In this document: positions 55,506 through 64,000 of the stretch, one piece after another
Layout: each line of letters begins with the position of its first letter
Numbering within the stretch: position 1 is the first letter of the stretch
From: Nioella sp. MMSF_3534
GTDB lineage: Bacteria; Pseudomonadota; Alphaproteobacteria; Rhodobacterales; Rhodobacteraceae
DNA length: 64,000 nt
Assembly: GCF_030732985.1 (NCBI RefSeq)
Contig: NZ_JASHJX010000005.1
Location: 62,001 to 126,000 of the forward strand
Direction: 5' to 3'
Notes under the pieces: model-generated
Seen by the model: only the letters and a program-made list of their open reading frames with translations
Databases searched by the model: none
What the model was told of the DNA's origin: nothing
Made by a program: the position numbers and the translations under genes

Positions 55506-55595
55506 GGAGAGGTGGCCGAGTGGTCGAAGGCGCACGCCTGGAAAGTGTGTAGGCGGGAGACCGTCTCCAGGGTTCGAATCCCTGTCTCTCCGCCA
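55506..55595 (+). tRNA. tRNA-Ser (anticodon GGA)
   Basis: A 90-nt tRNA including an encoded CCA (55593-55595). The acceptor stem GGAGAG pairs with CTCTCC near the 3' end. The anticodon loop CTGGAAA gives anticodon GGA (reads UCC/UCU). A long variable arm typical of serine tRNAs precedes the T-loop GGTTCGAATCC. The sigma-54/cox/aco block begins right after it, so its 3' end is a possible integration site. Confidence 0.97.
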
Positions 55596-55756: not shown

Positions 55757-57043
55757 TCAAGCTTGTTTTCGACGCCGTTCATATGCGCCGGGTATTGCGA
55801 GCAGGGCTCGGTACTTGGCCACAGTCCGACGGGACATTGGCATGCCGGCCTTCTTCAATTGCCCGGCAAGATCCTCGTCTGAGAGAGGGTTTCGCGCGTT
55901 CTCGGTTGCGATCAGCAGCTTGAGACGCTGAAGGGCCTGTTCGCGTGTTCGTCCGGACTCCTGTTCGTTTAGCGGTCGTGCAAGGAACGCCGTGGCAGCA
56001 TGGGTTCCGCGATCCGTCCTGATGCTGCAACCGGACATGGCCCGGCTGATCGTGCTCTTGTTGACGCCGATCTCCGAGGCAAGCTGAGCCATCTTCAACG
56101 GTTGCCTGTCACGGTCACGTCCGGTTCTGATGAACTTTTCCTGATGCCGGGCGAGTGCGGTGCCGATGGCGAGGATCGTATTGGCACGTTTCTGCATGGC
56201 GCGGACCAGGTTTCCCGCTTCCCGATAGCAGTCCCGATAATAGACTTGAGCCCTGTCATCGGTCTCTGCCGCCATCGTTGTCGAAAACAGCGCGTCATCT
56301 ACAAGGAGTGTGGGCATCGCGGCTTCGTTCAGCGCGACCGTGAAACCTCCATCATCATCCTGATGGATCAGAAGATCCGGCGCCTGCTCTGTCGTGACCG
56401 GATCGGGTTGATGCCCCAGTGGGGCGGGGTTGAGGCCACGGATATCCTCCAGCATGTCGACCGCGTCTTCCTCGTCGACGCCGCATTCAGCGCAGATTGC
56501 CGCGACGTCTTTGCTCGCGATCAAGTCCAGCCGTTCAAGCAGCCTCTCGATCAGCGGATCAAAGCGGTTTCTGGCCTCGAGCTGCAATCGAAAGCAATCC
56601 GCCAGCGACCACGCAAAAACTCCGGCGGGTTCCACTTCTCTTTGAAGCTTTGCGACGAGGTCCATCAATTCATCAAGGCCGCACTCAAGATACCCTGCAA
56701 TCTCCTGGGGTGTGTCAGCCAGAAAGCCACGGTGATCGAGGCTATGCACAAGACCTTCGGCAAGATGCGCCTGTCTTGTGGATAGTTTGATCAGCCCGAC
56801 CTGGTGAAGGAGTGCGTCCCTCCGGCTCTGCTTCTCCGGCCTTTCGATCTCCTCGTGATGAGCGGCGCTTTTGACGGGGATCGACGGGACCGATCGGAGA
56901 AACGCATTTCTGCCTTGTTCGCGCTCGATGAGTTTGGCGGCCTCTTCCTGGTCCATAGCCAGCAATGAAAGAGACGTCCGCATCGTCTGGGTCAATGCCA
57001 GTTTTTGCACCTGTGTCTGCTGCTGGACCTGTTTCAAGGGCAT
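55757..57043 (-). CDS. rpoN: RNA polymerase sigma-54 factor (RpoN paralogue)
   Basis: A 428-residue sigma-54. Region I is Gln-rich (MPLKQVQQQTQVQKLALTQTM, then SLSLLAMDQEEAAKLIE). A core-binding domain follows, then the helix-turn-helix MAQLASEIGVNKSTISRAMSGCSIRTDRGTHAA. The C-terminus carries the RpoN box as SRRTVAKYR, one residue from the common ARRTVAKYR, in the family context PLSDEDLAGQLKKAG. It is divergent from the cox operon, whose -24 element lies only 24 bp from this start codon. The rpoN of most proteobacteria sits near lptB and hpf, which are absent here, so this is probably an additional copy. Confidence 0.93.
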   Translation of the reverse strand: MPLKQVQQQTQVQKLALTQTMRTSLSLLAMDQEEAAKLIEREQGRNAFLRSVPSIPVKSAAHHEEIERPEKQSRRDALLHQVGLIKLSTRQAHLAEGLVHSLDHRGFLADTPQEIAGYLECGLDELMDLVAKLQREVEPAGVFAWSLADCFRLQLEARNRFDPLIERLLERLDLIASKDVAAICAECGVDEEDAVDMLEDIRGLNPAPLGHQPDPVTTEQAPDLLIHQDDDGGFTVALNEAAMPTLLVDDALFSTTMAAETDDRAQVYYRDCYREAGNLVRAMQKRANTILAIGTALARHQEKFIRTGRDRDRQPLKMAQLASEIGVNKSTISRAMSGCSIRTDRGTHAATAFLARPLNEQESGRTREQALQRLKLLIATENARNPLSDEDLAGQLKKAGMPMSRRTVAKYRALLAIPGAYERRRKQA

Positions 57044-57066
57044 CCGTCAAAGCCTGATGTCTATTA

Positions 57067-57084
57067 CTGGCATGTTTGTTGCTT
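57067..57084 (+). promoter_or_regulatory. Sigma-54 promoter of the cox-like operon
   Basis: CTGGCATGTTTGTTGCTT: -24 GG at 57069-57070 and -12 GC at 57081-57082, with canonical 12-bp register. It matches the YTGGCACG-N4-TTGC consensus except for one C to T. Transcription would begin near 57093-57094, giving a 24-nt leader that contains the GGAGGGAAG ribosome site (57102-57110). Confidence 0.85.
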
Positions 57085-57117: not shown

Positions 57118-57618
57118 ATGGACCTTACCGGATCGAGGAAAATCGCGGCGCCCAGAGCCGATGTCTGGAACGCGATACTGTCAGCTGATTGCCTGAAAGC
57201 CTGCGTTCCGGGGTGCACCGAGATGTCTGGCTCGCCCGAAACGGGGTTCGAGGCGACCGTGGTTCAGAAAGTCGGACCGGTCAAAGCGACCTTCGTGGGC
57301 TTGGTAAGACTGTCCGACATGGTCCCGCCCAAAAGCTTGACACTGGACGGCGAAGGCAAGGGCGGCGCCGCCGGTTTCGCCAGGGGCGGAGCAAGGGTGC
57401 ATCTCGAAGAGGACGGCGACTGCACCGTGCTTCACTATCATGTCGAAGCGAAAGTCGGGGGCAAGCTGGCACAGCTTGGATCGCGCATAATCGACGGGTT
57501 CGCCAAGAAGATGGCCGATCAGTTCTTTGCAAACCTTCAGGTTGAGATCGAAGGCCCCGACGACATCGCATCACCGGCACAGAAAAAGAAGGGGTGGCTG
57601 AACAGGCTGGTGAGCTGA
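57118..57618 (+). CDS. coxG: CoxG-like SRPBCC protein
   Basis: A 166-residue CoxG family member. The start is the ATG at 57118 (MDLTGSRKIAAPRADVWNAI), since 14 upstream codons overlap the promoter region. The SRPBCC fold is suggested by ADCLKACVPGCTEM, VGPVKATFVGLVRLSD and LDGEGKGGAAGFARGGARVHL. In carboxydotrophs CoxG helps anchor CO dehydrogenase to the membrane; it is also found with other molybdenum hydroxylases. It is first in coxG-S-L-M, an order in which coxG leads rather than follows. Confidence 0.88.
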   Translation: MDLTGSRKIAAPRADVWNAILSADCLKACVPGCTEMSGSPETGFEATVVQKVGPVKATFVGLVRLSDMVPPKSLTLDGEGKGGAAGFARGGARVHLEEDGDCTVLHYHVEAKVGGKLAQLGSRIIDGFAKKMADQFFANLQVEIEGPDDIASPAQKKKGWLNRLVS

Positions 57619-57657: not shown

Positions 57658-58128
57658 ATGTCCGAGATAAAGATGACCGTTAACGGGAAACCGGTTGGCG
57701 GTGACGTGGCAGACAACATGCTGCTCGTCGAGTTCATTCGCGAAACCCTGCGCCTGACCGGCACGCATGTGGGTTGTGACACATCGCAATGCGGGGCCTG
57801 TGTTGTCCATGTCGATGGCAAGGCGGTGAAATCCTGCACGATGCTGGCAGCGGCAGCAGACGGGGCCGAGGTGACAACGATCGAAGGCGTCGCCAACGGC
57901 GACCTGCATCCGATGCAAAAAGCCTTCAATGACAATCACGGGTTGCAATGCGGCTTCTGCACGCCGGGCATGATCATGAGCGGGATCGACATGGTCAACC
58001 GCTACAAGGCCGAGGGCAAGACGCTTGATGAGGCTGCAATCCGGCACGAGCTGGAAGGCAATATCTGCCGCTGCACCGGGTACCACAACATCGTGAAATC
58101 CATCAGCCAGGCCGCTGGCGAGATGTAA
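57658..58128 (+). CDS. coxS: Molybdenum hydroxylase small subunit, two 2Fe-2S clusters (CoxS-like)
   Basis: A 156-residue electron-transfer subunit. The N-terminal plant-type cluster is [22 protein letters not shown] and the second, all-helical cluster is [12 protein letters not shown]...[10 protein letters not shown]. It passes electrons from the molybdenum site to the FAD subunit. It ends 14 nt before the large-subunit ATG. Confidence 0.95.
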
Positions 58129-58142
58129 GGGAGGGTCATCAG

Positions 58143-60497
58143 ATGAGCCAAGGAATTGGTGCCGCAGTCAAGCGCAAGGAAGACAAGCGCTTCACGACCG
58201 GCAAGGGAAAATACACCGACGATATCCGCATGGAAAACCAGGCCTATGCGGCCTTTGTGCGCTCGCCGCATGCCCATGCGCGGGTCAACAGCATCGACAC
58301 AAGTGCCGCCGAGGCCATGGACGGCGTCATCGCCATTCTTAACGGCGCGGAACTGACCGGGGACGGGATCGGCAATATCATCTGCGGATGGGCGATCACC
58401 TCCAAGGATGGCAGCCCGATGAACATGGGTGCCTGGTCGGCGCTTGCCACCGAAAAAACCCGCTATGTGGGCGACGCGGTGGCGATCGTGATTGCCGAAA
58501 CCAATGCCCAGGCCCGCGCGGCGGCAGAGGCCGTCGATATCGACTATGAGGAACTGCCGGTTGCGGCCAGCCTCGCAGCAGCGCTTTCTGACGGTGCCCC
58601 GCAGATCCACGAAAACGCCCCGGGCAACATCGTCTATGACTGGGAGATCGGCGAGAACGAGGCCACCGAGGCCGCATTGGCGGGTGCTGCGCATATCACC
58701 AAGATGGATATCACCAATAACCGTCTGTCGCCGAACCCGATGGAGCCGCGTTCAGCCGTGGCCATCTATGACGATGCCGAGGATCACTATACGCTCTATA
58801 CAACCAGCCAGAACCCGCATGTGGCGCGTCTGGTTTTAAGCGCGTTTTATAACGTTGCGCCGGAACACAAGCTGCGCGTGATCGCGCCGGATGTGGGCGG
58901 CGGTTTCGGGTCCAAGATCTACATCTATCCCGAAGAAATCGCCTGTCTCTGGGCGTCGATGAAGACCAATCGCTCTGTCAAATGGACGTCCGACCGGACC
59001 GAGGCCTTCCTGACGGATGCCCATGGTCGGGATCATGTGACCAAAGCGCGGATGGGCTTCGATCAGGATGGCAGGATCGTTGGTTTCAAGGTCTCGACCA
59101 AGGCCAATTTCGGGGCCTATATGTCGCTCTTCTCCAGCGCGGTTCCGACCTATCTTTACGCGACTCTGCTGTCGGGCACCTACAATATTCCGAACATCTA
59201 TTGCGAAGTTCTGGGTGTCTATACCAACACGGTGCCTGTCGATGCCTATCGAGGTGCGGGGCGACCGGAAGCCTCGTATCTTGTGGAACGCATGATCGAG
59301 ACAGCCGCGCGAGAGATGGGCAAAGACCCTGCGGATCTGCGCAACATCAACTTTATCCGCGAGTTTCCGCATCAGACGCCGGTGATCATGAACTACGATT
59401 CCGGCGATTTCGAAGGCAATATGCGTCAGGCGATGGTTGCCGCCGATTGGGCCGGGTTCGGCGCCCGCAAGGCTGAAAGCGCAATGCGCGGCAAACTGCG
59501 TGGCATCGGCATGTCCTGCTATATCGAGGCTTGCGGCATCGCGCCGTCGGCTGCTGTCGGGTCGCTTGGGGCGGGTGTCGGTCTTTGGGAAAGCGCCGAA
59601 GTGCGGATGAACCCCGTCGGCACGATCGAGGTTCTGACCGGGTCGCACAGCCACGGGCAAGGGCACGAAACCACCTTCGCGCAAGTCGTGGCGGATCGTT
59701 TCGGCGTACCGATAGACACCGTGCAGATCGTGCATGGCGACACCGACAAGGTCCAGTTCGGCATGGGCACCTATGGGTCACGCTCCGGTCCTGTCGGTAT
59801 GTCGGCCATCGTCAAGGCGCTCGACAAGCTCGAGGTCAAGATCAGGAAACTGGCGGCGCATCTGCTCGAAGCGTCGGAAGCCGATATCGTGATCGAGGAC
59901 GGACAGGTCAAAGTCGACGGAACCAACAAGGTTCTCGCCTGGCACGAGGTCGGCCTGGCGGCCTATACCGGCCACAACCTGCCCGAGGGCATGGAGCCCG
60001 GACTGAAGGAAGGGGCGTTCTACGATCCTCTGAACTTCACCTTCCCGATGGGCTGCTTCATCTGCGAGGTGGAGGTCGACCCGCAAACCGGCAAGACCGA
60101 GATCCTGAAATTCGTCGCGTCAGATGACTTCGGAACCATCATCAACCCGATGATTGTCGACGGCCAGGTTCATGGTGGCATCGCTCAGGGTGTCGGGCAG
60201 GCAATGCTGGAGGAAGTGCGTTACAGCGAGGACGGCCAGCAATTGTCGGCGTCCTATATGGACTACGCAATGCCGCGGGCCGACGATCTGCCGGACTTCG
60301 ATGTGCTGCATCACTCAACCCCCTGCACAACCAACCCCCTGGGCATGAAAGGCTGTGGGGAGGCCGGGGCCATCGGCACACCACCGGCGGTCATCAACGC
60401 GATCACCGATGCGATTGGCAATAACGATCTCAGCATGCCGGCCACCCCGGCCAAGGTCTGGGCCGCGCTGAACAGCGCCACAATCGCCGCTGAATAA
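58143..60497 (+). CDS. coxL: Molybdenum hydroxylase large subunit (form II CoxL-like)
   Basis: A 784-residue xanthine-oxidase-family catalytic subunit binding the Mo-cytosine dinucleotide cofactor. The active-site loop is AYRGAGR (residues 368-374), the form II or generic type; genuine form I CO dehydrogenases have AYRCSFR with the copper-binding Cys. The catalytic glutamate is Glu740 in [10 protein letters not shown]. Other Mo-site motifs are [15 protein letters not shown] and [23 protein letters not shown] oxidation is therefore doubtful; the substrate could be a carbonyl or heterocycle. It is preceded by coxS and followed by the FAD subunit. Confidence 0.93.
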
Positions 60498-60508
60498 GGG
60501 AGGTTACA

Positions 60509-61306
60509 ATGCACAGTACAAACTATCACGCTGCCACAACGGCAGCAGAAGCCGCGAGCCTTCTGTCATCTGCCGAGGACGGGGCGCTGCTTGCCGGCGG
60601 TCAGACGCTGTTGCCAACGATGAAGGCACGACTGGCCGCGCCCTCGGACCTCATCGATATTTCGCGCGCAGAGGAGCTTCGCGGGATCTCTGTAACCGAT
60701 GGCACAGCCATTATTGGCGCCATGACCACCCATGCAGAGGTGGCAGGGCACGCAGAGTTGCGATCCGCCTTCCCTGCCCTTTGCGATCTGGCGGGTCGGA
60801 TCGGGGATCCCGCGGTCCGTCATCGGGGCACCATCGGCGGCAGCCTCGCCAACAATGACCCGGCGGCATGTTACCCGGCGGCGGTGCTTGGAACGGGGGC
60901 AACCATCTCGACCAACAAGCGCGACATTGCGGCCGACGACTATTTTGAGGGCATGTTCGCTACGGCCCTTGATGCGGGCGAGGTCATAACCTCGATCACC
61001 TTCCCGATCCCGGACGCCGCAAACTACCAGAAGTTCGCGCAACCTGCCTCGCGCTTCGCCCTGGTGGGCGTGTTCGTTGCGAAATCCGCGGATCGCGTGC
61101 GCGTTGCCGTGACGGGTGCCTCGGAAGAGGGCGTATTCCGATGGACAAACGCCGAAACCTCGTTGTCGTCCGATTTTACAGCAGATGCGATTGGCGGGCT
61201 GTCAGTCAGCTCGCAAGGGATGATTAGCGACCTGCATGGCGATGGAAGCTATCGCGCAAACCTGGTTCAGGTTCTGACAGCGCGTGCGGTTGCCGCCGCA
61301 TCCTAA
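60509..61306 (+). CDS. coxM: Molybdenum hydroxylase FAD-binding subunit (CoxM-like)
   Basis: A 265-residue FAD subunit. FAD-contact motifs are [19 protein letters not shown] (pyrophosphate loop) and [22 protein letters not shown]. It completes the three-subunit hydroxylase. A strong hairpin terminator follows 8 nt after the stop, so the cox unit ends here and acoX has its own promoter. Confidence 0.94.
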
Positions 61307-61670: not shown

Positions 61671-61689
61671 TTGGCACAAACGTTGCTTT
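61671..61689 (+). promoter_or_regulatory. Consensus sigma-54 promoter of acoX-acoA-acoB
   Basis: TTGGCAC-N5-TTGCTTT with -24 GG at 61673-61674 and -12 GC at 61685-61686: a full match to TGGCAC-N5-TTGC. Transcription would start near 61698, leaving an 18-nt leader with an AAGGGAGG ribosome site. Acetoin operons of Cupriavidus and Bacillus are also sigma-54 dependent. Confidence 0.9.
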
Positions 61690-61715: not shown

Positions 61716-62759
61716 GTGACCAAAGTTGGCATCATCGCAAACCCTGTCTCTGCCCGCGACATTCGCCGGATCGTCAGCCATGCGGGCAACCTGCCGATCA
61801 ACGACCGGGCCAATATCGTGCTTCGGATGATGACGGGGCTTATGGCGACGGGCGTCGAAGAGGTGGTGATCATGCCGGAAAACGGTGGGATCCGCACACA
61901 GCTGATGCGCGTCATCGACCGCGAAAACCGCATGGGTCACGTTCGGTTTCCCCGTGTCAGCTATCTGGACATGCCGGTCACCTGCACCTCGGAGGACAGC
62001 GCGGAAGCCGCCCGCCAGATGCACGATCAGGGTGTCGGAGCGATCGTTGTTCTGGGCGGTGACGGGACCAACAGGGTTGTGGTGTCCAAATGCGGCAACA
62101 CGCCGATTGCGGGCGTGTCCACCGGCACCAACAACGCCTTTCCAGAGTTGCGCGAACCCACGATCACGGGACTGGCTGTCGGACTGGCGGTAACGGGACA
62201 GGTGCCCTGCGAGCACGCCTTTGCCTACAACAAGCGGCTGGAAGTCCGCGTGAACGATCAGCGCGAGATCGCACTTGTCGATGTGGCCGTCGTTTCCGAG
62301 CGCTTCATCGGTGCCCGCGCCATCTGGAAGACGGCGAACTTCCGCGACCTGTTTGTTACCTTCGGCCTGCCTGACGGTATCGGCATGTCCTCTATCGTGG
62401 GGCTTCTTGCACCGCTTGATCGGCAGGAACCCGAGGGGCGAAGGGTACGACTTCTACCGCTTGAGACCGCAAACTTGCGTCTGACCGCCCCCATTGCGCC
62501 GGGCCTGATCGAAGAGGTCGGCATCGGGGCTGTCGAGAAGGTTGTTCCCAACGAGGTCTATCTGCCGAGCGTTTCCGCCGGGTCGTTTGCACTCGATGGC
62601 GAACGGGAACTGACCTTCAGCGAAATCGACGATGTCAGCATCCGGCTTCAGGCCGATGCGTTCCGCACCGTCAACGTGCCCGATTGCATGGCCTATGCGG
62701 CCCGGCACGGGCTTCTCACCCGCGCCGCGTCAGAGGCGCTGCGCACCGCTCAACCATAA
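61716..62759 (+). CDS. acoX: AcoX-like ATP-NAD kinase-family protein
   Basis: A 347-residue protein of the AcoX/NAD-kinase-like family. The GGDGTNR motif (AIVVLGGDGTNRVVV) is the nucleotide-binding signature; NTPIAGVSTGTNNAFPELREPT is typical of AcoX. I place the start at GTG 61716 (VTKVGIIANPVSARDIRR) because GGGAGG lies 7-9 nt upstream and 73 upstream in-frame codons span the sigma-54 promoter. AcoX commonly precedes acetoin dehydrogenase genes; its reaction is not established. It is 11 nt before acoA. Confidence 0.88.
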   Translation: MTKVGIIANPVSARDIRRIVSHAGNLPINDRANIVLRMMTGLMATGVEEVVIMPENGGIRTQLMRVIDRENRMGHVRFPRVSYLDMPVTCTSEDSAEAARQMHDQGVGAIVVLGGDGTNRVVVSKCGNTPIAGVSTGTNNAFPELREPTITGLAVGLAVTGQVPCEHAFAYNKRLEVRVNDQREIALVDVAVVSERFIGARAIWKTANFRDLFVTFGLPDGIGMSSIVGLLAPLDRQEPEGRRVRLLPLETANLRLTAPIAPGLIEEVGIGAVEKVVPNEVYLPSVSAGSFALDGERELTFSEIDDVSIRLQADAFRTVNVPDCMAYAARHGLLTRAASEALRTAQP

Positions 62760-62770
62760 GGGAGGACCTC

Positions 62771-63751
62771 ATGAGCAACCCGTTCCCACTGGAAAAAGAC
62801 GGGCTTCTGGAAGCCTATCGCCGGATGAAGACGATCCGGGAATTCGAAGAACGCCTGCATGTCGATTTCGGCCGCGGCGATATCCCCGGTTTCGTGCATC
62901 TCTATGCAGGCGAAGAGGCCGCGGGCGTCGGCATCATGATGCATTTGCAGGATCATGACCGCATCGCCTCGACCCACCGGGGCCACGGTCACTGCATCGC
63001 CAAGGGCGTGGATGTGAAAGGCATGATGGCCGAGATCTACGGCAAGGCGACCGGCTCCTGCGCGGGCAAGGGCGGATCGATGCATATCGCCGACCTGTCC
63101 AAGGGCATGATGGGCGCCAACGGCATCCTCGGTGCAGGCGCGCCGCTGGTCTGCGGCGCGGCGCTGGCGGCCCAGAAGCTGGGCCATGACGGCGTGGGCA
63201 TCACCTTCTTTGGCGATGGCGCGTCGAACCAGGGCACGGTGCTGGAATCGATGAACCTGGCCGCGATCTGGAACCTGCCGGCGATCTTTGTCGTGGAAAA
63301 CAACGGCTATGCGGAATCGACCTCGGTCGACTACGCCGTCGCGTCTGACAGCTACGTCGACCGCGCGACCGGTTTCGGCATGCCCGGCATCACCGTGGAC
63401 GGCACCGATTTTTTTGCCGTCTACGAGGCGGCGGGCGAGGTGGTCAAGCGCGCCCGCGAAGGCGGCGGGCCGACCCTGCTGGAATGCAAGATGATCCGCT
63501 TCTTCGGCCATTTCGAGGGCGATGCGCAGACCTACCGCGCACCGGGCGAGAACGAGGACAACCGCAAGAACCGCGACTGCCTCAAGATCTTCCGCGCCAA
63601 GGTGACCGAGGCGGGTGTGCTGACCGATGCCGAGATGGACGCCATTGACGCCGAGGTCATGACCCTGATCGAGGACGCGGTGACCGAGGCCAAGGCCGCC
63701 CCGCTGCCCACCCCCGCAGACCTGACGACCGATGTGTACGTGTCCTACTGA
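62771..63751 (+). CDS. acoA: TPP-dependent acetoin/2-oxoacid dehydrogenase E1 alpha
   Basis: A 326-residue E1 alpha. The TPP-pyrophosphate region is GVGITFFGDGASNQGTVLESMNLAAIWNLPAIFVVENNGYAEST, with the GDG...NN motif. The phosphorylation-loop-like RGHGHCIAKGVDVKGMMAEIYGKATGSCAGKGGSMH is also typical. The start is the ATG at 62771 (MSNPFPLEKDG), with GGGAGGA just upstream. Following acoX, it fits acetoin:DCPIP oxidoreductase alpha subunit; pyruvate dehydrogenase E1 alpha is the alternative. Confidence 0.9.
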   Translation: MSNPFPLEKDGLLEAYRRMKTIREFEERLHVDFGRGDIPGFVHLYAGEEAAGVGIMMHLQDHDRIASTHRGHGHCIAKGVDVKGMMAEIYGKATGSCAGKGGSMHIADLSKGMMGANGILGAGAPLVCGAALAAQKLGHDGVGITFFGDGASNQGTVLESMNLAAIWNLPAIFVVENNGYAESTSVDYAVASDSYVDRATGFGMPGITVDGTDFFAVYEAAGEVVKRAREGGGPTLLECKMIRFFGHFEGDAQTYRAPGENEDNRKNRDCLKIFRAKVTEAGVLTDAEMDAIDAEVMTLIEDAVTEAKAAPLPTPADLTTDVYVSY

Positions 63752-63780: not shown

Positions 63781-64000
63781 ATGGCACGTACATTGAGCAT
63801 GAAAGACGCGATCAACGAGGCGCTGGATCAGGAGATGAGCCGCGACCCCACGGTGATCATGATGGGCGAGGACATCGTCGGTGGCGCCGGTGCCGCGGGC
63901 GAGGACGACGCCTGGGGCGGGGTTCTGGGGGTCTCGAAAGGGCTCTACCACAAGCACCCCAAGCAGATGATCGACACGCCGCTGTCGGAAAGCGCCTATG
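63781..64000 (+). CDS. acoB: TPP-dependent dehydrogenase E1 beta (cut by window edge)
   Basis: The first 73 codons of an E1 beta: MARTLSMKDAINEALDQEM, then PTVIMMGEDIVGGAGAAGEDDAWGGVLGVSKGL and an end in TPLSESAY. It is 29 nt after acoA with AAGGAG as ribosome site. The insertion GAAGEDDAWGG after GEDI is typical of AcoB-like subunits. The remainder, and any acoC E2, lie beyond the window. Confidence 0.88.
   Translation, partial: MARTLSMKDAINEALDQEMSRDPTVIMMGEDIVGGAGAAGEDDAWGGVLGVSKGLYHKHPKQMIDTPLSESAY

Follow-up and report, generated by a model that had tools for sequence, protein, structure and literature searches.

A sole rpoN gene beside an acetoin gene cluster in Nioella sp. MMSF_3534 and its probable place in a pathway-dedicated sigma-54 circuit

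Gene content of the locus

The window analysed here is a stretch of 64,000 nucleotides (contig C61:62001-126000) from the assembly of Nioella sp. MMSF_3534, which comprises 4.15 Mb in 105 contigs and is rated 100% complete. It carries rpoN, the gene of sigma-54, on the minus strand (55757-57043; 428 aa, ATG start), divergent from a plus-strand series of coxG-, coxS-, coxL- and coxM-like genes followed by acoX, acoA, acoB and acoC, the latter in the order of an acetoin dehydrogenase operon. The coxG-like gene (PF06240; 57118-57618) was listed as an open reading frame from TTG 57076, its likely start being the ATG at 57118, downstream of the promoter. It is followed by genes for a CoxS-like [2Fe-2S] subunit of a molybdenum hydroxylase (57658-58128), a CoxL-like Mo-cofactor large subunit (58143-60497), the best curated name of which is glyceraldehyde dehydrogenase subunit with a score below the cut-off, and a CoxM-like FAD subunit (60509-61306). 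The NAD-kinase-like acoX (61716-62759, GTG start) precedes acoA (E1 alpha subunit, 62771-63751) and acoB (E1 beta), of which only the start lies in the window (63781-64000); acoB and acoC continue to the end of contig C61, which falls within acoC. In the homologue of the family genome G224, the domains of an E2 with alpha/beta-hydrolase domain were seen. Contig C33 of the window genome holds a CMD-family gene, a redoxin gene, acoR, a third -24/-12 site and an ABC-transporter gene. In Nioella sediminis JS7-11, the closest named relative, the same genes continue the cluster directly behind acoC, in the order CMD-family gene, redoxin, acoR and, after the third site, the ABC transporter. Judged by this contiguity, the two contigs C61 and C33 are very probably neighbours in the window genome.

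The GC content is about 58-60% at rpoN, coxG and coxS vs 61-66% upstream, which is weak as a sign of recent transfer. No association of the module with a tRNA gene emerged: a tRNA-Ser(GGA) gene (window 55506-55595) flanks rpoN at its 3' end in the two Nioella loci, and it occurs in none of the four further module loci covered by the scan, which did not extend to Paracoccus.

In aco systems, the acoXABC products cleave acetoin, which yields acetyl-CoA and acetaldehyde. A function of the cox genes as aerobic CO dehydrogenase was rejected, as the CoxL-like protein reaches 640.6 bits with the large-subunit profile TIGR02416, below the cut-off of 991.15 bits. In G224, an aldehyde dehydrogenase gene replaces the cox genes, its product scoring 922.8 with ExaC (acetaldehyde dehydrogenase; cut-off 900). 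Given this ExaC-type enzyme at the cox position and the low CO dehydrogenase score, the Cox-like molybdenum enzyme is a probable aldehyde oxidoreductase and probably oxidises acetaldehyde. The cluster of Ruegeria pomeroyi SZCCDBG043 continues to lipoyl synthase and acetate-CoA ligase, which would complete the acetoin pathway. Acetoin as substrate and inducer is suggested by the gene names and by the neighbouring genes in Paracoccus, where one of two dehydrogenases encoded with the module on plasmids is a 2,3-butanediol dehydrogenase.

The sole rpoN and its distribution in the family

A preceding sequence-only reading of this DNA had described a complete rpoN gene divergent from a cox-like operon, and this was borne out: the product of the reading frame features all three Pfam domains above their curated cut-offs (AID PF00309, 30.7 bits; CBD PF04963, 125.1 bits; DBD PF04552, 132.9 bits) and the RpoN box SRRTVAKYR, which recognizes the -24 element. 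Its score with the NCBIfam equivalog TIGR02395 is 272.5 bits and thus below the cut-off of 277.35; this shortfall concerns a cut-off made for annotation, which a divergent clade just fails to reach, and is no biological feature. The description of the gene as a paralogue and as non-canonical had to be given up, as genome-wide searches for a second rpoN with the profiles PF04552 and PF04963 returned one match each, both being the window gene. The idea of a second rpoN in the Nioella genome was therefore rejected. Compared with N. sediminis, the RpoN proteins are 99% identical, with dN 0.0031 and dS 0.046 for the gene (dN/dS about 0.07).

Within the Rhodobacteraceae, rpoN is an accessory gene. 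PF04552 matches occur in 83 of 248 genomes of the family (77 above the cut-off) and are absent from the other 165, and the window RpoN protein was matched in 129 of 394 family genomes. G186, a genome marked as belonging to the same genus as the window, gave no rpoN match.

Predicted sigma-54 promoters

The predicted -24/-12 site of coxG (CTGGCATGTTTGTTGCT, 57067-57083, plus strand) reads CTGGCATG-TTTG-TTGC, with G at -16 and T at -11. The earlier observation that 24 bp (57044-57067) separate the rpoN start codon from its TGG was confirmed. A second site was found before acoX (TTGGCACAAACGTTGCT, 61671-61687, plus strand), reading TTGGCACA-AACG-TTGCT with the TGG at 61672 and ending 28 bp before the acoX GTG (61716); it had been called a full-consensus site, yet it has A, not G, at -20 and thus falls slightly short. 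Both sites fit TGGYAYRNNNNTTGCW, for which two matches in the window compare with 0.09 expected, and none of 100 shuffles reached two. In the whole genome of 4.15 Mb, this pattern has five sites (control 2) and the stricter TGGCAYGNNNNTTGCW has four (control 0). The five are those of coxG and acoX, C33:45469, C59:8328 and C17:140072. The site on C33 is located 43 bp past the stop of the acoR-like gene and ahead of the ABC-transporter gene; that on C59 lies inside an open reading frame and that on C17 inside an ntrC-like frame, on the opposite strand. Hence three of the five sites are intergenic sites of the aco cluster and the remaining two are intragenic.

With up to one mismatch, 60 sites vs 45 in the control were obtained, namely four exact ones and 56 with one mismatch, acoX being among the latter. 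Besides acoX, 52 of the 55 one-mismatch sites fall within open reading frames of at least 60 aa, by a rough test that used longest frames instead of called genes, and three lie outside (L037, L234, L245); no start of a frame of at least 60 aa was found within 250 bp behind these three. The one-mismatch sites were accordingly rejected as a genuine genome-wide regulon. The patterns are narrow, so sites with two or more departures escape them and further sites are possible.

The sequence-only reading had proposed a dedicated sigma-54 circuit used instead of the housekeeping RpoN. Its first half is supported, the circuit looking dedicated with three of five sites in the cluster and a linkage that recurs in distant relatives, whereas its second half lapses since no housekeeping RpoN was found besides this one. 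It had further suggested a genome-wide site scan and a search for the other rpoN, and held that the idea would fail if the gene were the only rpoN and near-consensus sites were evenly spread. The gene is indeed the only one, yet the sites are spread unevenly, so the dedicated-circuit idea survives.

Across 28 genomes of the family, the TGGYAYRNNNNTTGCW pattern yielded 109 sites vs 57 in the control for the 18 genomes with rpoN, and 68 vs 58 for the ten without, the scatter among the latter being large (G001 13 vs 5, G006 14 vs 4, G013 9 vs 20). In 14 rpoN-bearing genomes (13 with complete rows and the window genome), no more than 40 kb separates 33 of the 84 sites from an rpoN gene, where 2.0 such sites would be expected, and five of the 14 genomes have none; leaving out the three module genomes, the count is 23 of 61. 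Clustering within 40 kb of rpoN was also observed in G211, G223, G219, G051, G039 and G239, which lack the module, hinting at other local sigma-54 regulons in module-free genomes. Sigma-54 thus seems often to work locally in this family, matching Cereibacter sphaeroides.

The module in other genomes and on plasmids

A collection of genomes from 84,980 species was searched with an alignment of two module RpoN proteins and two peptide patterns, which returned seven loci. Five are situated within acetoin clusters (N. sediminis, R. pomeroyi SZCCDBG043, a MAG, Frigidibacter sp. SD6-1 and Roseovarius), and no aco match was found in the flanks of the other two (33-34%). The Ruegeria module (56%) is of the cox version, and a second cox-like gene set is located behind its rpoN (L130, 13877-21152). 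In the MAG (50%), an aldehyde dehydrogenase and a DUF779 gene replace cox, with the gene order of the G224 contig. The Roseovarius module (49%) continues directly with acoX, its genome having a second rpoN elsewhere. Likewise, acoX follows directly in Frigidibacter (59%), where the contig ends within acoB, before acoR. This copy (L132, 1583-3608) is decaying, its rpoN being spread over two frames and its acoX giving matches only in two separate parts. Taken together, the module rpoN is the sole sigma-54 gene in three of the five related genomes, a fourth has a broken sole copy and the fifth a second rpoN. The acoR gene is linked to the module wherever the available sequence reaches that far.

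By tblastn, module-type RpoN (37-41%) and AcoR (about 58-59%) were also detected on Paracoccus megaplasmids, with at least ten records each. All four plasmids fetched show rpoN divergent from acoXABC, followed by the two dehydrogenase genes, a CMD-family gene and acoR. PLSDB types these four plasmids as non-mobilizable, so it is patchiness and plasmid location only that suggest transfer of the module.

Within the family, acoX at E values up to 1e-40 is restricted to three of 394 genomes, namely the window genome, G224 and G209. G209 contains acoXABC; neither an rpoN nor an acoR match was found there, nor a -24/-12 site before acoX, and a looser match (TGGCACACTCGTTGCC) is located inside an open reading frame 5 kb away on the same contig. 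In G224, two divergent sites of the same promoter type (L197 9708, minus, and 9805, plus; C37:26692 and 26804) occur about 12 kb beyond the third site and precede a glyoxalase-like gene and a PRK02399-type gene; the module of G224 thus seems to be larger. A further genome, G031, bears a 118-aa remnant of module-type rpoN with a stop (L109, G031:C54, 1294-1641; 53-54% identical) near a gene that by eye resembles an IstB transposition helper, and acoX had no match in this genome.

RpoN phylogeny and promoter dialect

In a tree of 58 sequences, and likewise in one of 54, the module RpoN proteins form one clade on a long stem with a support of 100/100; the tree covered nine module sequences (Frigidibacter left out) and 49 others from the fetched loci, not the whole family. 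Module AcoR is also one clade (SH-aLRT 100) among 38 sequences, and the two trees differ in the placing of G224 and Roseovarius.

All 13 marine module sites, comprising three from the window genome, five from G224, three from Ruegeria and one each from Frigidibacter and Roseovarius, share a G at -16 and a T at -11. Omitted from this count were the identical N. sediminis copies, the looser L131 9436 and L196 7658, which fail TTGCW, and G224:C10:50277, which has the same dialect on a different contig. For comparison, 24 sites were chosen among the matches listed within about 60 kb of rpoN in family genomes without the module; they have G at -16 in one case and T at -11 in ten. The difference amounts to Fisher values of 4e-9 (-16) and 3e-4 (-11), with kinship ignored and the comparison sites chosen by eye. 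The four Paracoccus sites also read GTTGCT, and two of them carry C at -20.

A corresponding peculiarity is found in the protein. Glu378 of Escherichia coli RpoN crosslinks to promoter DNA (PMC5505868) and is implicated in recognition of the -12 element (PMC4496707). The -12 helix reads HEST in most relatives, and this conserved Glu is absent from the window RpoN. Placed by the ESTISR spacing, the equivalent position is Lys in all nine module RpoN proteins and in the piece of the Frigidibacter gene, whereas the non-module proteins with a readable motif (44 of 49) have Glu in 38, Pro in five and Gln in one case, and Lys in none. As the position varies in the family, the Lys is taken as pointing to specificity and not to exclusion from RpoN. 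Lys at this position and -16G/-11T appear to go together as a correlation along one clade, not as a demonstrated contact.

The activator AcoR and the enhancer question

A search of the window genome with PF00158 gave nine rows, which correspond to six EBP-like proteins, since two rows belong to one NtrC-like protein and two were set aside because by reading of the sequence they look like Clp-type ATPases. Among the six, only AcoR (NSFTGA) keeps an intact FTGA sigma-54 contact motif; a response regulator on contig C83 has GAFPGA, and the other four are without a motif at that place. By eye, these five regulators, on C83, C19, C23 and C17, are of NtrC, NtrX and DctD types; with GAFTGA changed or missing, they presumably work without sigma-54, and the C83 protein, which has an HTH_8 domain, might retain weak sigma-54 activity. 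The functional variants of GAFTGA include those with N in position 1 and those with S in position 2, and replacements at position 4 other than S, E or D are classed as inactive (Francke et al., PMC3162934).

AcoR contains a GAF and an AAA+ domain, and the FTGA part is kept in all nine module AcoR proteins examined, with NAFTGA in Paracoccus PD1222 and NSFTGA in R. pomeroyi SZCCDBG043. Its gene has dN 0.0069 and dS 0.134 against N. sediminis (dN/dS about 0.05). By Pfam, the C-terminal Fis-type HTH_8 domain occurs in all four Paracoccus AcoR proteins and in none of the five marine module ones. By motif, an HTH ends 33 of 38 AcoR-like sequences, the five without being those of the marine modules. 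Outside the module (family loci L140-L165), 26 of 29 AcoR-like proteins are without a GAFTGA-like motif and have the HTH kept; in much of the family, such regulators seem to have switched to working without sigma-54.

In line with the domain difference, all four Paracoccus promoters feature a TGTTGCA-N5/6-TGCAACA-like dyad about 60 bp upstream of the -24 element. In three of them none of 100 shuffles was as good, and the dyad of PD1222 is weak (11 of 14 bases, spacer 9, three of 100 shuffles as good); the consensus was drawn from these same promoters and the shuffles preserve single-base content only. The dyad of this type was found at none of ten marine promoters, the best matches being no better than shuffles (23-100 of 100); these ten are the promoters tested in four intact, non-duplicate modules, two extra G224 sites being left out. 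The Frigidibacter promoter likewise gave no better match than shuffles (72 of 100). A search for 8-base dyads in general drew no line between Paracoccus and marine promoters, only P. kondratievae standing out (4 of 100). The sequence-only reading had reasoned that any coxG enhancer must overlap the rpoN coding sequence. This geometry is right, as the DNA 100-200 bp upstream of coxG is rpoN coding sequence, and that upstream of the transporter gene is acoR coding sequence; still, no enhancer is expected at coxG, since the likely activator AcoR is without a recognizable DNA-binding domain. The best reading is that activation would be enhancer-independent in this genome.

Proposed mechanism and alternative explanations

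These features are most readily explained by a self-contained, portable-looking sigma-54 circuit dedicated to acetoin catabolism, a reading that is considered likely on the strength of the comparisons described. AcoR would sense acetoin and form a hexamer, which would remodel RpoN holoenzyme poised at all three promoters, those of coxG, acoX and the ABC transporter. It would act from solution and not from an enhancer, and the cell may tolerate this since it seems to have no further active sigma-54 regulon. The acoXABC products would then split acetoin, and the Cox-like enzyme would oxidise the acetaldehyde, a role that the ExaC-type enzyme would take in the G224 version. The shared dialect (the Lys at the Glu378 position; -16G and -11T) would set this RpoN and its promoters apart from other RpoN systems. 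A more far-reaching version, for which the chances are judged to be even, regards rpoN as a plug-in sigma factor. Sigma factor, activator and promoters would form a transferable kit that a private dialect keeps separate from foreign RpoN systems; the activator would have shed its DNA-binding domain and the promoters their enhancers once the kit was the sole sigma-54 customer of the cell. Living relatives would then represent stages of this path, with enhancer-dependent activation on the Paracoccus plasmids at one end and enhancer-independent activation in the marine branch at the other, and the even chances apply to this sequence as well.

The gene could also be an ordinary, sole housekeeping sigma-54 gene that lies beside one of many targets, the other promoters being too degenerate for the patterns. 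No further rpoN was found in the genome, and the patterns are narrow enough for the two Paracoccus module sites with C at -20 to escape the stricter ones, though they are within the one-mismatch list. Nevertheless, this explanation is unlikely: there is only one EBP with an intact FTGA, the one-mismatch sites besides acoX are mostly (52 of 55) inside long frames, and divergent genomes have kept rpoN linked to acoXABC and acoR. Moreover, with 165 of 248 family genomes lacking an rpoN match, the gene is not a housekeeping one here. Somewhat less probable still is that AcoR is not the activator, or not the only one, and that it forms mixed hexamers with an HTH-bearing partner, for which the C83 response regulator would be a candidate. 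This would resemble C. sphaeroides, where FleT, devoid of its DNA-binding domain, and FleQ act together as a hetero-complex (PMC11999139), and the C83 protein does carry HTH_8. However, its GAFPGA is changed at position 4 and thus belongs to the inactive class of Francke et al. (PMC3162934), no Paracoccus-type dyad was found at the marine promoters, and acoR is linked to the module wherever sequence reaches.

The least probable explanation, regarded as quite improbable, is that rpoN merely moved along with the aco operon, the promoters of which now use another sigma factor while rpoN decays. The decayed copies in Frigidibacter and G031 (the 118-aa remnant) and the presence of acoXABC without rpoN in G209 would agree with such hitch-hiking. 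Against it speak the low dN/dS of rpoN and acoR, the sites that three genomes of divergent flanks have each preserved at three promoters, and the FTGA found in all nine module AcoR proteins examined. The dedicated acetoin circuit is therefore preferred.

Comparison with known systems

Dedicated RpoN/bEBP pairs are known from the same bacterial order. In Cereibacter (Rhodobacter) sphaeroides, RpoN1-NifA, RpoN2-FleQ/FleT and RpoN3-AprX each serve one gene set, and the -11 position matters (PMC11999139). The Nioella pair is alike in combining one RpoN and one bEBP for one gene set. Nevertheless, four RpoN paralogues coexist in C. sphaeroides, whereas one rpoN was found in Nioella, which further differs in the acetoin pathway, the Lys at the Glu378 position, the G at -16 and a presumed activator that is itself without an HTH; the C. 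sphaeroides proteins were not placed by name in the RpoN tree.

Activators without a DNA-binding domain are likewise known, FlgR serving flagellar genes. FlgR of Helicobacter pylori and CtcC of Chlamydia are classed as type Ic bEBPs, Chlamydia having one activator (PMC3162934; for CtcC also PMC7482065). Like marine AcoR, they combine a signal domain with AAA+ and have no HTH. CtcC, however, serves developmental genes, whereas marine AcoR would be an HTH-less activator of a catabolic cluster with an rpoN gene of its own; HTH and dyad persist in related modules.

Known AcoR/sigma-54 acetoin operons depend on a sigma-54 that is encoded elsewhere, and their AcoR is equipped with an HTH. Nioella differs by having rpoN inside the cluster. 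The AcoR-like group of Francke et al. combines a GAF-AAA+ activator with aco genes as here, and the AcoR variant treated there in 2011 is very probably of the same lineage as module AcoR, given the NAFTGA and NSFTGA of PD1222 and SZCCDBG043; the excerpts of that article (PMC3162934) contain nothing on rpoN linkage, promoter dialect or HTH loss. A link of rpoN to acetoin dehydrogenase in Rhodobacteraceae was not found among titles of the open-licence literature. Thus, neither dedicated RpoN/bEBP pairs nor HTH-less bEBPs are without precedent; as far as these searches show, what is new is an rpoN gene that forms part of an acetoin cluster, with its own dialect and with HTH-bearing as well as HTH-less stages in living relatives.

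Conclusion

Sigma-54 is usually regarded as a global, enhancer-dependent regulator. In this family, it appears as a pathway-linked factor with its own promoter dialect, which is plasmid-borne in some hosts. Three questions thereby become testable in tractable bacteria, namely what the Glu378 position reads at the -12 element, whether the absence of competitors allows an activator to lose its DNA-binding domain, and how sigma factors spread within catabolic clusters. Moreover, the module would also provide a compact orthogonal expression system.
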